Assembly (NCBI GenBank): GCA_024742405.1 | Contig: JANSYP010000005.1 | Span: forward strand, 62,001-126,000 | Reading direction: 5' to 3' | Source of the DNA: Paracoccaceae bacterium | GTDB lineage: Bacteria > Pseudomonadota > Alphaproteobacteria > Rhodobacterales > Rhodobacteraceae | Length of the DNA: 64,000 nt | Shown here: positions 11,915-17,205 of the stretch, piece by piece | How the letters are laid out: each line of letters begins with the position of its first letter | Position numbering within the stretch: position 1 is the stretch's first letter | The notes under the pieces: generated by a model | Told to the model about the DNA's origin: nothing | The model's database searches: none | Seen by the model: the letters and a program-made list of their open reading frames with translations, nothing else | Position numbers and translations under genes: made by a program

Positions 11915-12199
11915 ATGGCACGCGTGATCACGCTTCCTGACCGTCTGGACAGCACGGCGTGCAGCGAACTGCTGCCCATGCTGATTGCCCATCGGACAGA
12001 CCCGGTCGACCTGGACGGCAGCGCCGTTTCCCATATCGGGGCGGTGGGCGCGCAGCTCCTGCTGGCGGCCCGCGCAAGCTGGACCGACCCTGACCGGTTC
12101 CGGGTCACGGGCCTTCAACAGCCAGCCCTGCGCTGTCTTGCCGAGCTTGGCTTTGCGCCCGACCATGTTGGCGCCGTGCCAGCGGGACCGGCGCCATGA
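11915..12199 (+). CDS. STAS-domain protein of chemosensory operon
   Basis: A 94-residue single STAS domain. It has the fold's sequence pattern: LPDRLDSTACSELLPML, then LDGSAVSHIGAVGAQLLLAA, where the Ser region corresponds to the conserved switch loop, then a beta strand and terminal helix. Such small STAS proteins occur as first genes of alphaproteobacterial che operons, and their role is not settled. It overlaps the following cheY by 4 bases. The ribosome site is weak. Confidence 0.75.
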   Translation: MARVITLPDRLDSTACSELLPMLIAHRTDPVDLDGSAVSHIGAVGAQLLLAARASWTDPDRFRVTGLQQPALRCLAELGFAPDHVGAVPAGPAP

Positions 12200-12558
12200 C
12201 CACGGTCCTTGCCGTCGACGACAGCCGCACGATGCGCGAAATCATTGCCCTGACGCTCCGGGGTGCCGGCATCGATACGCACCTGGCCAAGGACGGCCAG
12301 CACGGGCTCGAGGTGCTGGAGGAGCTCGCGCCGGACGCGATCATCACGGACATCAACATGCCGCGGCTGGATGGCTATGGGTTCATCGCGGCGGTCCGGG
12401 ACCGCAGCCAGAGCCGCACGGTGCCCATCCTCGTGCTGACGACCGAGAGTGCGGACGACCTCAAGGCGCGCGCCCGCGCCGCCGGGGCCACCGGCTGGAT
12501 CGTCAAGCCTTTCGATCCGGGCAAGCTGGTGCGCGCCGTCCAGATGGTCACCGGCTGA
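12196..12558 (+). CDS. cheY: Chemotaxis response regulator CheY (first copy)
   Basis: A 120-residue stand-alone receiver domain. The acidic pair is Asp8-Asp9 (AVDDS), the phospho-acceptor Asp52 (TDINMP), the switch Thr82/Thr83 (LVLTTES) and the conserved Lys104 (IVKPFDPG). No output domain is attached, so it acts by protein contact, either at the flagellar motor or as a phosphate sink. It starts within the STAS stop and lies 12 bases before cheA. Confidence 0.93.
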   Translation: MTTVLAVDDSRTMREIIALTLRGAGIDTHLAKDGQHGLEVLEELAPDAIITDINMPRLDGYGFIAAVRDRSQSRTVPILVLTTESADDLKARARAAGATGWIVKPFDPGKLVRAVQMVTG

Positions 12559-12570
12559 GGCGCTCCGGAG

Positions 12571-14679
12571 GTGCGCGCGTCCGATGATCCGATGGCCGAG
12601 TTCCGCGCCACGTTCTTTGCCGAGTGCGAAGACCTCCTGGAGGGCGCGCAAGCGGGACTTCTGGCAATGCAGCACGGCCGCGCCGATTCCGAGACGCTCA
12701 ACGTGGTCTTTCGCGCGGTCCATTCGATCAAGGGCGGCGCCGGCGCCTTTGCGCTCGAGGAGATCGTCGCCTTTGCCCATCAGTTCGAAACCGCCCTTGA
12801 TCAACTGCGCACCGGCACGCTGCAACCGGACGCGGCTACCATCCTGCTGCTCTTGAACGCTTCCGACGGGTTGTCGGATCTGGTTGCCGCATCCCGGGAC
12901 GGTACATCCCTGGAGCGCGGAGCAACCGACGCCACCCTGGCCGACCTGTGCGCGCTCGTCAGCGACGGAAAGGCTGACGAGAACCCGACCGAGGGATTCG
13001 TCGTCACCAAGCTATCGCTCGATCTGGACGCCCCCGAGCCACCCTTGCCGGAACGACAGACCTACCGGATCGACTTTGTTCCGGACGACGCGCTCTACGC
13101 ACTTGGAAACGAGCCGCTGTTTTTGTTCCGCGCACTGGCCGAGCTTGGTGATCTGGAGGTCGTTGCGGACATCGCCATGGTGCCCGAGATCGACAAGTTC
13201 GTACCAGGCAGCTCCTATGTCGGCTGGACGCTGGATTTGACGACAGCGGCGTCGGACGCCGAGATCGCTGAAGTGTTCGACTTCGTCGACGGCCTCTGCA
13301 CACTACGGATCGCACGGGTTCCGGCAGATCGGGCCCTTGATCCGGTACCGTGCCCGCCGCCGGGCGCTCAAACCGCGTCAGCCCAAGCTCCCGGAAGCGC
13401 CCCGCAGGAAGGCCCGGTGGGCGAGCCCCCCCAGACGCGTCCCGAGGCGCACCTGCCGCAGGCCTCCACCGCGGCGCCCGTGGCGGCGACCGTGCGGGTC
13501 GACCTGGACCGTATCGACCGATTGGCGAACCTCGTGGGTGAATTGGTCATTCAGCAGGCGATCCTGACCCAAAGCATCGCCGATACGGGGCTGACACGGC
13601 GCTCCACCGTGAGCCAAAACCTCGAAAAGCTGACGGGGCTCACACGCGAGATGCAAAACGGCGTCATGATGATCCGTGCCCAACCGTTGAAATCTCTGTT
13701 CCAGCGGATGTCCCGAATCGTTCGCGAAGCCTCCGCTGCATCGGGAAAGCCGGTCCGGTTTAGCACCGAAGGCGAGGCCACCGAAATTGACAAGGCCATG
13801 ATCGAAGGGTTGGCCGATCCGTTGATGCACATGCTGCGCAACGCGGTCGACCACGGTCTGGAGCCGCCTGGAATCCGCGCCGCGGCAGGCAAGTCCGCCC
13901 AGGGGGACGTCAGGCTCTCCGCCGCGCACCGCTCCGGCCGGGTTGTGATCGAGGTTACCGACGATGGCGGCGGCATCGATCGCGCAAAGGTCTTGGACAC
14001 CGCCATCTCTCGTGGGCTCGTTTCAGCCGGCGCGCAACTCTCCGAGCCCGAGATCGACAGCTTGCTCTTCCTGCCGGGGTTTTCCACGGCCGGAGAGGTC
14101 TCGAACCTGTCTGGTCGAGGCGTGGGCATGGATGTCGTGCGCAGCGCGATCCAGACCCTGGGCGGGCGCATCGCCATACGCTCCGAAACCGGGCGCGGCA
14201 CGACCTTCTCGGTCAGCCTTCCGCTCACCCTGGCTGTTCTCGACGGCATGATCGTCGATGTGGCCGACGAACGCCTCGTCCTGCCGGTGCACACCATCAT
14301 CGAAACCTTGACCCTGTCGGATGATGAGGTCGGCGAGCTTGCGCCGGGGTCATCGCTCGCCATGGTCCGCGGACAGATCCTGGCGCTGCTCGATCTTGGG
14401 TCCGCGCTTGGCTACCGCGCGCCGTTGGAAACCATCGCGGGCGCCCAAGCCTTGGTGATCGCGCTGGAGGGGAACGAACGGGTGGCCCTGCTGGTGGACG
14501 CGATCCACGATCAGCGGCAGGTCGTCATCAAGGGTCTGAGGGACGGGTTCGGCCGCGCGCCGGGGGTGGCCGCGGCGACAATCCTGGGAGATGGCCAGGT
14601 CGCCCTGATCCTCGACCCGATCGAAATCGTCGCGCACGCCGGCATCCGTGCCGCCGCCCCTCTTTCGTCTGCAGGATAA
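12571..14679 (+). CDS. cheA: Chemotaxis histidine kinase CheA
   Basis: A 702-residue kinase with standard domain order. The HPt domain carries His51 in AVHSIKGGAGAF. A middle region (about 165-250, YRIDFVPDDALYALG) is followed by a Pro/Ala-rich linker, the dimerisation helices from about 308, the ATP domain with N-box HMLRNAVDHGLEPP (420-433), G1 DDGGGID (464-470) and G2 SGRGVGMDVV (514-523), and a C-terminal CheW-like domain. The start is uncertain: GTG 12571 touches its GGAGG, while ATG 12592 lies 20 bases downstream of it. It receives signals via CheW and phosphorylates the two CheY proteins of the operon. Confidence 0.92.
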   Translation: MRASDDPMAEFRATFFAECEDLLEGAQAGLLAMQHGRADSETLNVVFRAVHSIKGGAGAFALEEIVAFAHQFETALDQLRTGTLQPDAATILLLLNASDGLSDLVAASRDGTSLERGATDATLADLCALVSDGKADENPTEGFVVTKLSLDLDAPEPPLPERQTYRIDFVPDDALYALGNEPLFLFRALAELGDLEVVADIAMVPEIDKFVPGSSYVGWTLDLTTAASDAEIAEVFDFVDGLCTLRIARVPADRALDPVPCPPPGAQTASAQAPGSAPQEGPVGEPPQTRPEAHLPQASTAAPVAATVRVDLDRIDRLANLVGELVIQQAILTQSIADTGLTRRSTVSQNLEKLTGLTREMQNGVMMIRAQPLKSLFQRMSRIVREASAASGKPVRFSTEGEATEIDKAMIEGLADPLMHMLRNAVDHGLEPPGIRAAAGKSAQGDVRLSAAHRSGRVVIEVTDDGGGIDRAKVLDTAISRGLVSAGAQLSEPEIDSLLFLPGFSTAGEVSNLSGRGVGMDVVRSAIQTLGGRIAIRSETGRGTTFSVSLPLTLAVLDGMIVDVADERLVLPVHTIIETLTLSDDEVGELAPGSSLAMVRGQILALLDLGSALGYRAPLETIAGAQALVIALEGNERVALLVDAIHDQRQVVIKGLRDGFGRAPGVAAATILGDGQVALILDPIEIVAHAGIRAAAPLSSAG

Positions 14680-14683
14680 CATC

Positions 14684-15151
14684 ATGACCGCTGAGACACG
14701 CCCCGGCGACGATACAGGCCGCGAACTTCTGTCCTTCCATGTGGCAGACCAGAACTACGCCTTCGACATCCTGTCGGTCCGCGAGATACGTGGTTGGTCC
14801 AGACCGACGCCCCTGCCACACGCGCCGGCCTATCTGCTCGGCGTGATCAATCTGCGCGGCACTGTGCTTCCAGTCATCGATCTGGCCGCACGGTTGGGCA
14901 TGCCGGACCGCCAGAGCACCCCGCGCGACGTGATCATCGTCGTGACCGTGGCCGAGACAGATGTGGGGCTTCTGGTCAGCGCGGTGTCGGACATTCTGAC
15001 CCTCCCCCGCGATGCGTTGCAGCCGCCGCCCGGACCGGCGGCCGACCCGGTCGCCGCATTTGTCAGCGCACTGGCCGCGCAGGACGGCGCCATGATCCGG
15101 CTGCTGGATCTGAACGCAGTCATCCCGGCCCAGGGCGGCGCTGCGGCATGA
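14684..15151 (+). CDS. cheW: Chemotaxis coupling protein CheW
   Basis: A 155-residue CheW adaptor linking receptors to CheA. The family pattern is clear: LLSFHVADQNYAFDILSVRE, the receptor-contact PLPHAPAYLLGVINLRG, TVLPVIDLAARLGM and the second subdomain with IIVVTVAETDVGLLV. The start at ATG 14684 follows a GCAGGA site that overlaps the cheA stop. The longer frame from 14648 lies inside cheA and is not supported. Its stop overlaps an ATG that opens the uncharacterised 500-base stretch. Confidence 0.92.
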   Translation: MTAETRPGDDTGRELLSFHVADQNYAFDILSVREIRGWSRPTPLPHAPAYLLGVINLRGTVLPVIDLAARLGMPDRQSTPRDVIIVVTVAETDVGLLVSAVSDILTLPRDALQPPPGPAADPVAAFVSALAAQDGAMIRLLDLNAVIPAQGGAAA

Positions 15152-15654
15152 CGCGGCACGCAGCAGAGAATTTGGCGACACGCCCGTCTAAGGAGCCGGG
15201 AGACGCCGCCTTCATCTCTCTCGATGGTCCGCGCGGGCGCAAAACTAGCCCGGCCGGTCGGAGGACAGCGCCCGGCTTGGCTTCCGCCCAGCCACCCACT
15301 GTACCGCACATCATTAGGAAGCCGCGCCAATACGGCAGGATCTGCACAAAGACGTCGCCGCCTGATCCTGCGCTCTGCATGACAAGGGACAGAATCCGCC
15401 CAGAGCCGATGCGCGGCACCTTCGACGCCATCCCGGGCCGTAACGTCACACCATGTTTTAACGCTGCGCCGCAGACAATGCCCTGGCGCGTGGTCTGCGC
15501 GCTGTTGCGGCCCGGTGGGGGACAATTTATCGATCCTGTTGGACCGGTGGTCCGGGATCGCGACCTGGTTCCTACCGTGTGCAGGCCGACCGCGCACCGA
15601 CAGTCGAAACCGGCCGACGCTGCAAGCCTTGCCGGGATGGGACACAAGAAATGA
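15148..15654 (+). other. Unassigned 500-base gap in che operon with a doubly coupled ORF
   Basis: Between cheW and the second cheY there is about 500 bases without a recognisable gene. One frame stays open across it for 168 codons; its ATG overlaps the cheW stop (ATGA) and its TGA overlaps the ATG of the second cheY. The product would be rich in Arg and Pro and resembles no che protein I know. Its third-position GC looks lower than in flanking genes. It may be a real coupled gene, a decayed gene, or chance. Confidence 0.3.
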
Positions 15655-16037
15655 CACTCCGGGAGAAACTGCGGATCATGGTCGTCGACGATATGTCGAC
15701 CAGCCGCGGACTGATCGTGCAGGCCCTGGAGGCATTCGGGATCCAGTCCGTGAGCCATGCCCCCGGCGGCGCCGAAGCGCTCGAAGCGCTGCGTATGGCG
15801 CCGGTGCATCTCATAATATCCGACTACAACATGCCGGGTATGGACGGATTGCAGTTTCTCAACACCCTGCGCGCGCAGAAAGCGACCAAGGACACAGGCT
15901 TCATCCTGATCACCGGGCGTGCCGACCGCCAGATGATCGAAGAAGGACAACGGCTCGGCATGAACAACTTTCTCAAGAAACCATTTCAGCCGGTGGAGCT
16001 TCGCCAATGTATCGAGGCGGTTGTCGGGCGACTCTAA
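15651..16037 (+). CDS. cheY: Chemotaxis response regulator CheY (second copy)
   Basis: A 128-residue receiver domain distinct from the first copy. It has Asp13-Asp14 (VVDDMS), phospho-acceptor Asp58 in SDYNMPGMDG, switch Thr88 (LITGR) and Lys110 before Pro (FLKKPF). The start at ATG 15651 fits the usual distance to the acidic pair. Having two CheY proteins per CheA is common in alphaproteobacteria, where one drives the motor and the other drains phosphate. It is directly upstream of the putative CheZ/CheT-like gene. Confidence 0.92.
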   Translation: MTLREKLRIMVVDDMSTSRGLIVQALEAFGIQSVSHAPGGAEALEALRMAPVHLIISDYNMPGMDGLQFLNTLRAQKATKDTGFILITGRADRQMIEEGQRLGMNNFLKKPFQPVELRQCIEAVVGRL

Positions 16038-16098
16038 CCCTGGCCACGAACCGGGCGACGGGCCGTCGGCGACGCACATCGGCAAGGGAGGACAGCAG

Positions 16099-16491
16099 AT
16101 GGGACAGCTTCTGGCGCGCAGAACCGCCGCCCATTTGCGCACGCTCGCGACGGATTGCGAGAGGATCCAGGGGGCCGTCGGGGACCTGATCGCGTGGGAT
16201 GCGTCGGACCGGACGAAACGAAGGCCCGCGGGCTTGGCGGAGCAGACCTTGCACGATTTGCAGGGGCTCGACCGGATCGGCCAGCTTCTGCGCGACCTGG
16301 CCGACGTGCAGCACGCCCTGTCGATGTCCGACAGGAACGACGGAGCCGAAATGGCCGCGGCGCGGGCCGTAGAGATTGCGCGGCTCCAGGAAACCCGCAT
16401 GGCGCTGGCCGCCGGATCCCTGGACGGCGAGACGCCTGAGCCCCGGCCTGCGCGGCGTGACGGCGGAGCAGAAGACTGCGAGTTGCTCTAG
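16099..16491 (+). CDS. Small helical protein, possible CheZ/CheT-like phosphatase
   Basis: A 130-residue, largely helical protein with a strong GGGAGGA ribosome site 12 bases before ATG 16099. The second helical block contains LQGLDRIGQLLRDLA, giving a DxxxQ pair at Asp58 and Gln62. CheZ-type CheY-P phosphatases use exactly a DxxxQ motif. The C-terminus is a Pro/Arg-rich linker (about 110-121) followed by a short acidic-hydrophobic tail, EDCELL, resembling the arrangement by which CheZ docks CheY. It is last in the che operon, after the second cheY. The phosphatase call is inference from motif, architecture and context. Confidence 0.5.
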   Translation: MGQLLARRTAAHLRTLATDCERIQGAVGDLIAWDASDRTKRRPAGLAEQTLHDLQGLDRIGQLLRDLADVQHALSMSDRNDGAEMAAARAVEIARLQETRMALAAGSLDGETPEPRPARRDGGAEDCELL

Positions 16492-16518: not shown

Positions 16519-17205
16519 TCAGGAGGTTTGGGCGCGGTCGCGGATCTCTTCCCAGGCGCGATTGACGGCAATCAGCCGCGCTTCAGCGAGGCGCATCGCC
16601 TCTTCCGGGAGACCGCGCGCGAGCATCCGGTCGGGATGGGTTTCGCGGACGAGGTCCCGCCAGAGCGGCCGGATCTCGGCAAGCGACATATCCGGCTTGG
16701 CGCCCAGGACCTCGTAAGGATCCGGGTCCGCACCCGGCACGAACCGCGCCTGCAACCCGCGAAACTCCCCCGCAGTGAGATCGAAGATCTCTGCCACCCG
16801 GCGCAGGAACACATCCTCGCCCGGATGATAGGTGCCGTCGGCCATCGCGATGTGAAAGAGCCCCTCCATCAGGTCGCGCAGGCTGTCATGGTCGGGGCCG
16901 AACATACCGCGCACCTTTTGGGCATATTCCTCGAACCCGGCCACATCCTGGCGCGCGAGGTTAAAGACCCGGGCCGCTGCCGCCTCCGCGTCGCGGGGGA
17001 TGTGAAAAACCTCGCGGAAGGCCGTGACCTCGTCGCGGGTGACCTGGCCGTCCGCCTTGGCCATTTTCGCGCCCAGGGCGATCACGGCGATCGTAAAGGC
17101 CACGCTGCGTTCGGGCGGACTGCGCAAGAGGTCGAAGACATGGGCCAGCGGCTCGCCCTGGGCGAGCGCGGAAACCGCTTCTGCAATGCGCGACCAGATC
17201 GACAT
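16519..17205 (-). CDS. DjlA-like protein (TerB domain plus J domain)
   Basis: A 228-residue protein with two domains. Residues about 25-150 form a helical TerB-like domain (IALGAKMAKADGQVTRDEV and a second AMADGTYHPGEDVFL acidic repeat). The C-terminal 65 residues form a J domain with DPYEVLGAKPDMSLAEIRP and the essential HPD in ETHPDRML. It would act as a DnaK co-chaperone. Unlike enterobacterial DjlA it shows no clear N-terminal membrane anchor. It is convergent with the che operon. Confidence 0.88.
   Translation of the reverse strand: MSIWSRIAEAVSALAQGEPLAHVFDLLRSPPERSVAFTIAVIALGAKMAKADGQVTRDEVTAFREVFHIPRDAEAAAARVFNLARQDVAGFEEYAQKVRGMFGPDHDSLRDLMEGLFHIAMADGTYHPGEDVFLRRVAEIFDLTAGEFRGLQARFVPGADPDPYEVLGAKPDMSLAEIRPLWRDLVRETHPDRMLARGLPEEAMRLAEARLIAVNRAWEEIRDRAQTS

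Follow-up and report, generated by a model that had tools for sequence, protein, structure and literature searches.

The gene at 16099..16491 (+) of the window, the whole 64,000-nucleotide stretch of Paracoccaceae DNA analysed here, encodes a 130-residue protein that, judged by its sequence, is a distant orthologue of CheT and a divergent new member of the CheT kind. The original prediction had named it a CheZ/CheT-like phosphatase. The CheT half of this proposal is sustained by profile homology and operon order, whereas the CheZ half fails as homology and holds as functional analogy, so that membership is supported for CheT only. Our whole explanation, in which this CheT orthologue would form a dimeric hairpin bundle and hydrolyse CheY-P via Q62 and D58, is in our judgement probable.

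The reading frame follows a Shine-Dalgarno-like AGGGAGGA read at 16085..16092 (+), with the ATG 6 nt further on, and its start Met is equivalent to the start of the same-genus orthologue. The putative catalytic pair D58 and Q62 (codons 58-62, 16270..16284, +) lies in the segment LQGLDRIGQLLRDL, in the context LQGLDRIGQ, which has the form QxxDxxxQ. Codons 108-130 (16420..16488, +), delimited from the AlphaFold2 model and the tail pattern of relatives, encode the Pro/Arg-rich linker GETPEPRPARRD and an acidic-hydrophobic tail, EDCELL. The length, DxxxQ pair, linker and tail given in the original prediction were all confirmed on reading the sequence, as was the location right after a second cheY, the preceding gene cheY2 (15651..16037, +) encoding a response regulator (PF00072, 1.6e-25) with 78% identity to its same-genus orthologue. 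A Pfam scan of the protein returned no family at E <= 1, including no CheC/CheX/FliY family. The latter are the CheY-P phosphatases of bacteria without CheZ; they are alike in the role proposed here, CheY-P dephosphorylation in the absence of CheZ, and differ in fold and motif (ExxN).

Upstream, the che operon of the window comprises a cheS-like STAS gene (11915..12199, +; PF13466 1.6e-06, just under cut-off), in the same operon place as the STAS genes of S. meliloti and Ruegeria sp. TM1040, cheY1 for another response regulator (12196..12558, +; PF00072 2.2e-26), cheA with Hpt, dimerisation, ATPase and CheW-like domains by Pfam (12571..14679, +; NCBIfam CheA 6.8e-125, below its cut-off) and cheW (14648..15151, + as listed, with a GTG start; PF01584 6.9e-39). 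The CheT-like gene thus stands at the end of the series cheS-cheY1-cheA-cheW-cheR-cheY2, in which the window's cheR is a remnant. A TerB-DnaJ (DjlA-like) protein is encoded convergently with the operon at 16519-17205 (-).

Conservation of the gene after cheY2 was followed in loci chosen by cheY2 similarity alone and ranked by it. Among the best 30 of 44 cheY2-positive family genomes, the window's genome included, QxxDxxxQ was present in this gene at 29 of 30 loci (at 28 it lies in the first-listed ORF, at L046 in an overlapping second one); at L050, which alone does not have it, cheY2 is followed by cheB. A second set, the 80 best-ranked of 580 confirmed stretches, comprises named loci, and the motif was found at 79 of the 80 (72 in the first-listed ORF, seven in another overlapping ORF); at the 80th, L067, the gene is cut by the contig end. 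Because some genomes recur between the sets (L053 and L002, for example, are the same contig), these counts are not independent. Loci with the motif include Rhodobacter capsulatus, Thioclava, Roseobacter, Sulfitobacter, Celeribacter and Paracoccus. A bare DxxxQ was rejected as evidence since 52% of shuffles of the window protein contain one; QxxDxxxQ occurs in 2.9% of them and in 127 of 6000 shuffled proteins of the 30-locus set, and it is its conservation across loci that raises the motif above chance. The operon order cheS-cheY1-cheA-cheW-cheR-cheY2-cheT was found in 59 of the 80 named loci (best 80 of 580).

The window protein was aligned with 79 named positional orthologues (alignment A4, 80 rows, L067 being left out for its contig end); QxxDxxxQ served to choose the ORF for each named row, no complete locus lacking the motif. 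Mean column identity is 24%, and only Q55, D58 and Q62 are invariant (80/80), which agrees with the conservation expected of D58 and Q62 in orthologues; D66 is present in 76 of the 80 rows. By 100-degree wheel arithmetic, Q55, D58, Q62 and D66 lie in an arc of 80 degrees that faces away from L57 and L64. DxxxQ was also kept in all rows of the 30-row alignment A3, which omits L046, L050 and L023 (the second copy of the window's own locus) and includes L002 and L004 as additions.

Genes after cheY2 that are annotated hypothetical and keep QxxDxxxQ were also read in Ruegeria sp. TM1040 (WP_011536822.1; L195 6389-6718), Leisingera thetidis (L196 3390-3716) and Phaeobacter inhibens 2.10 (WP_014881834.1; L199 2384-2728); these three orthologues do not have the acidic-aromatic tail. 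The che operons of these Ruegeria, Leisingera and Phaeobacter genomes are located on plasmids. The 3.7-Mb record CP090106.1, titled S. meliloti pSymB, carries a che operon together with flagellar genes, so that a chromosome may have been deposited under a plasmid title; its CheT, although over the NF047973 cut-off, is annotated hypothetical. In Agrobacterium, a plasmid of conjugative type (L198 5001-7682) carries a lone cheY2-like gene, a small protein and two flagellin genes; the small protein after cheY2 was considered and rejected, being unrelated to the CheT-like family. A tblastn search of plasmids with one protein of the second family described below gave only E 0.2 and 0.9.

The link to CheT comes from profiles. 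The NCBIfam CheT equivalog NF047973, whose cut-off is 200 bits, is the sole NCBIfam model matched by the window protein, at 13 bits and thus below cut-off (E 0.077, residues 48-110 against model positions 53-114). At E <= 0.1 it matches 25 of the 80 rows of A4 (best 9.2e-6), the next model matching 8 of 80; the other 55 positional orthologues have no match at this threshold, and the Ruegeria TM1040 orthologue does not match the model either. Matches were found in 19 of 198 family genomes, the window's genome not being one of them. In 16 of these 19 loci a same-strand cheY2 lies upstream, in a 17th cheR and cheW do, and L006 and L015 have no che neighbour within the stretch fetched. At class level, one of 289 genomes, not the window's own, was matched, and in a second alphaproteobacterial family 19 of 99 (best 4.8e-11). 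No genome had a match over the cut-off among the 198, 289 and 99 sampled, yet S. meliloti CheT passes, with 225.5 bits: the model is narrow.

All 19 loci of the second family have a cheY2 match and a CheD match. In four of the five loci read, cheY2 and the matching protein are separated by a CheD-like protein (confirmed by Pfam in one of them, PF03975 1.9e-24), and in L181 cheY2 directly abuts the matching gene. Eighteen of the 19 proteins were aligned (A5; L164, with an unclear start, was left out): Q, D, Q and L are invariant and DxxxQ is present in 18 of 18. Aligned by hhalign, A4 and A5 gave 99.2% (E 1.8e-19, 122 columns), and BLASTP of the window protein against the A5 member L174 gave 33% over 72 residues (E 6e-7).

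The S. meliloti operon reads cheS-cheY1-cheA-cheW-cheR-cheB-cheY2-cheD followed by the gene matching NF047973, which the record annotates as hypothetical; its STAS and response-regulator genes are named cheS and cheY here after excerpts of PMC12654446 and PMC8429497. With hhalign, A4 gave 91.2% against S. meliloti CheT (E 1e-6, 116 columns) and A5 97.4%; in controls, A4 gave 0.15% against reversed CheT, at most 1.2% against 50 CheT shuffles, and 0.6% and 0.1% against two unrelated proteins. BLASTP of the window protein against S. meliloti CheT was not significant (E 0.44): homology over most of the length is seen with the family profile, not with the single sequence. The two proteins are alike in standing at the end of a che operon and in carrying QxxDxxxQ in the same register (LQGIDLAVQ in S. 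meliloti, LQGLDRIGQ in the window). S. meliloti CheT has 124 residues, lies directly after cheD and has an acidic tail with an aromatic end (GDFEAF), whereas the window gene immediately follows cheY2 without an intervening cheB or cheD, its product ends in ELL and scores 13 bits against the cut-off of 200, and cheR is lost in its genome.

Searched as a single sequence against 295 family genomes, the window protein retrieved itself, one same-genus protein encoded in the order cheR, cheY2 and the matching gene, and a match at 8.1e-4 in a 1145-aa frame that was set aside as chance-like; the contigs of named genomes gave no confirmed match with the window protein alone. The A7 profile, which contains the window protein, matched in 11 of 385 class genomes, five in the window's own family (its own genome included) and six elsewhere. 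Outside the family, cheB-cheY2-cheD precedes the match in L185 and L191 and a cheD does so in L189, while the matches in L192-L194, which have no che gene, may be due to chance.

Given A4, AlphaFold2 modelled the window protein with pLDDT 81.9 and pTM 0.70. Helices are predicted at residues 2-40, 48-75, 83-93 and 97-107; helix 2, encoded at 16240..16323 (+), carries D58 and Q62 and would pair with helix 1. No secondary structure is predicted after residue 107, and pLDDT is below 50 in residues 119-130. The R. capsulatus member has the same predicted hairpin (helices 19-46 and 55-84). The anticipated fold was therefore recovered in two members, as a predicted monomer composed of a two-helix hairpin and then short helices, which fits a CheZ-like hairpin without proving one. 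With Foldseek neither model had a match reaching E <= 0.001, and the structures listed were generic hairpins, EsxA among them; VIA-align placed a PE/PPE complex first (Z 9.2), then EsxA. CheZ was not among the 50 structure matches listed from each of the sets of 142, 285 and 125, which excludes nothing. The A4 profile searched against PDB sequences retrieved coiled coils (best keratin, 4.6e-5), which we took as compositional.

By analogy with CheZ, whose D and Q are the model for the catalytic roles assigned here, the window protein probably works like CheZ. Two hairpins would associate into a dimeric helical bundle, Q62 of each subunit would enter the active site of CheY with D58 helping to orient it, and a water molecule so activated would hydrolyse the phosphoryl group from CheY-P, while the flexible tail might dock CheY, CheR or another partner. 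Excerpts of PMC12654446 state that S. meliloti CheT has DxxxQ and enhances the dephosphorylation of one of the two CheYs. In a lineage without CheZ, such active signal termination would run in parallel to the CheS/CheY1 phosphate-sink route described for rhizobia, which, according to excerpts of PMC8429497, do without CheZ, CheY1 serving them as a phosphate sink together with CheS.

The same protein could instead serve mainly in adaptation, binding CheR and tuning methylation, with DxxxQ a structural feature or a relic. Indeed, excerpts of PMC12654446 describe a complex of S. meliloti CheT with CheR, and cheR is present in 79 of the 80 named che loci (best 80 of 580). Many CheT tails, moreover, have the form G-[DE]-x-x-[LWF]-F, with a common terminal F that is L in the window protein, and look like the acidic, aromatic pentapeptide of receptors to which CheR binds (excerpts of PMC7390727). 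These tails, however, are less conserved in A4 than D58 and Q62, and the genome of the window itself argues against this reading. About 500 nt separate its cheW from cheY2, and only a decayed C-terminal part of cheR is recognisable there (15388..15603, +; 33% over 72 aa to the same-genus CheR, itself a PF01739 match at 6.2e-63), matched by 68 of 77 CheR queries, 67 of them at E <= 1e-3. A search of the whole genome (98.25% complete) with PF01739 found no CheR, whereas eight of 14 control genomes matched. One MCP, with HAMP and MCP signalling domains, was found in this genome (L183 1228-2889, -). The cheR remnant, the absence of a CheR match and the single MCP together point to chemotaxis in which CheR does not methylate receptors. 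With no CheR match, a CheT-CheR complex is unlikely in this organism. The cheT gene has nevertheless outlived cheR, its frame and D58/Q62 being intact. Rough NG86 estimates, near saturation, are dN 0.54 against dS 1.83 for the window gene and its same-genus orthologue, on a branch much of which may be older than the cheR loss. Retention of CheT after the loss of its reported partner, taken with these values, favours a phosphatase role that does not need CheR, and we consider a mainly adaptive function unlikely.

Two further observations concern tails. The sole MCP of the window's genome has DWKGF at its end, similar to the pentapeptides through which receptors bind CheR or CheB, in a genome where no CheR was found. 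Tails ending [VIL]E[LF]F were present in 19 of the 23 CheD proteins listed (operons of L163-L181, L185, L187, L189, L191 and L197), S. meliloti CheD, not among the 23, ends in IEFF, and CheT tails read, for example, DFELF; a common docking partner for the similar CheT and CheD tails is possible. A looser acidic-hydrophobic end pattern occurs in 58 of 2058 frames of >= 150 aa in loci L053-L132.

A place for the protein within the CheZ family proper, as a diverged member, is in our view quite improbable. CheZ and the window protein share the DxxxQ pair, a helical hairpin (predicted for the window protein), a flexible linker and a hydrophobic tail, and cheZ likewise adjoins cheY in E. coli; excerpts of PMC12654446 also report a high similarity between E. 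coli CheZ and the AlphaFold model of S. meliloti CheT. The profile-to-profile comparison with CheZ, however, revealed no detectable sequence homology: against 17 CheZ proteins (alignment A6, E. coli CheZ and 16 others; L135, L141, L150 and L152 left out), hhalign gave 1.6% for A4 and 1.7% for A5, and A4 against E. coli CheZ alone gave 0.3%. The window protein has no PF04344 match and is 84 residues shorter than CheZ (130 against 214 aa), and the invariant Q of CheZ is at -1 from D, whereas that of the CheT-like family is at -3. None of 100 family genomes, the window's own included, has a PF04344 match, and 70 of 190 class genomes have one. Each of these searches included 14 controls, among which E. 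coli and B. subtilis matched, one of them over cut-off.

With its cheR already dead, the operon might be in decay and the gene non-functional. The adjoining remnant, the genome with one MCP and no CheR match, and the replacement of the terminal F of the tails by L would fit this view, which we nonetheless hold to be very improbable: the frame, the ribosome site, D58/Q62 and helix 2 are all kept, the frames of cheY2, cheA and cheW are open, and the dN and dS values, with the reservations given, speak against it. Least probable, in our estimate, is a binding role towards CheA or CheY without enzymatic activity, through a hairpin like the DHp of HisKA_3 kinases, which have a DxxxQ-type motif too, since the hairpin fold and the matches of three of 80 members to the CheA dimerisation domain, so weak (best 0.023) and few that they look like chance, are set against an A4 alignment with no invariant His, only Q55, D58 and Q62.

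A paper on S. meliloti CheT is reportedly that of Agbekudzi et al. 2024. In the titles and opening abstracts of the papers listed for CheT or CheZ, no description of CheT in Rhodobacterales was found. One passage of PMC12654446 places R. sphaeroides and C. crescentus among bacteria with CheD, CheS and CheT and names no gene, and another counts C. crescentus, not R. sphaeroides, among those with CheT homologues; the idea of relatives in this group is thus partly in print, while the family-wide conservation and the CheR loss were not met in the excerpts of that paper.

A broader reading may be advanced tentatively, and we doubt it more than we believe it: CheT-type proteins would be the general CheY-P phosphatase of Rhodobacteraceae, CheR-free in the genome studied here with its one receptor, which would separate the phosphatase role of CheT from its role with CheR; the tail, of one kind with the CheD tail of sister operons, would serve as a docking tag for an array partner common to both. 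Such proteins would have gone mostly unnoticed because their sequence drifts everywhere except at QxxDxxxQ.

The conserved gene after cheY2 is a direct candidate for ending the CheY signal in a family in which none of 100 genomes has CheZ, and CheT-like genes could explain how the signal is reset without a classical CheZ. The window's genome, which retained CheT after losing CheR, offers a natural test, made practicable by Ruegeria sp. TM1040 and Phaeobacter inhibens with their orthologues annotated hypothetical.
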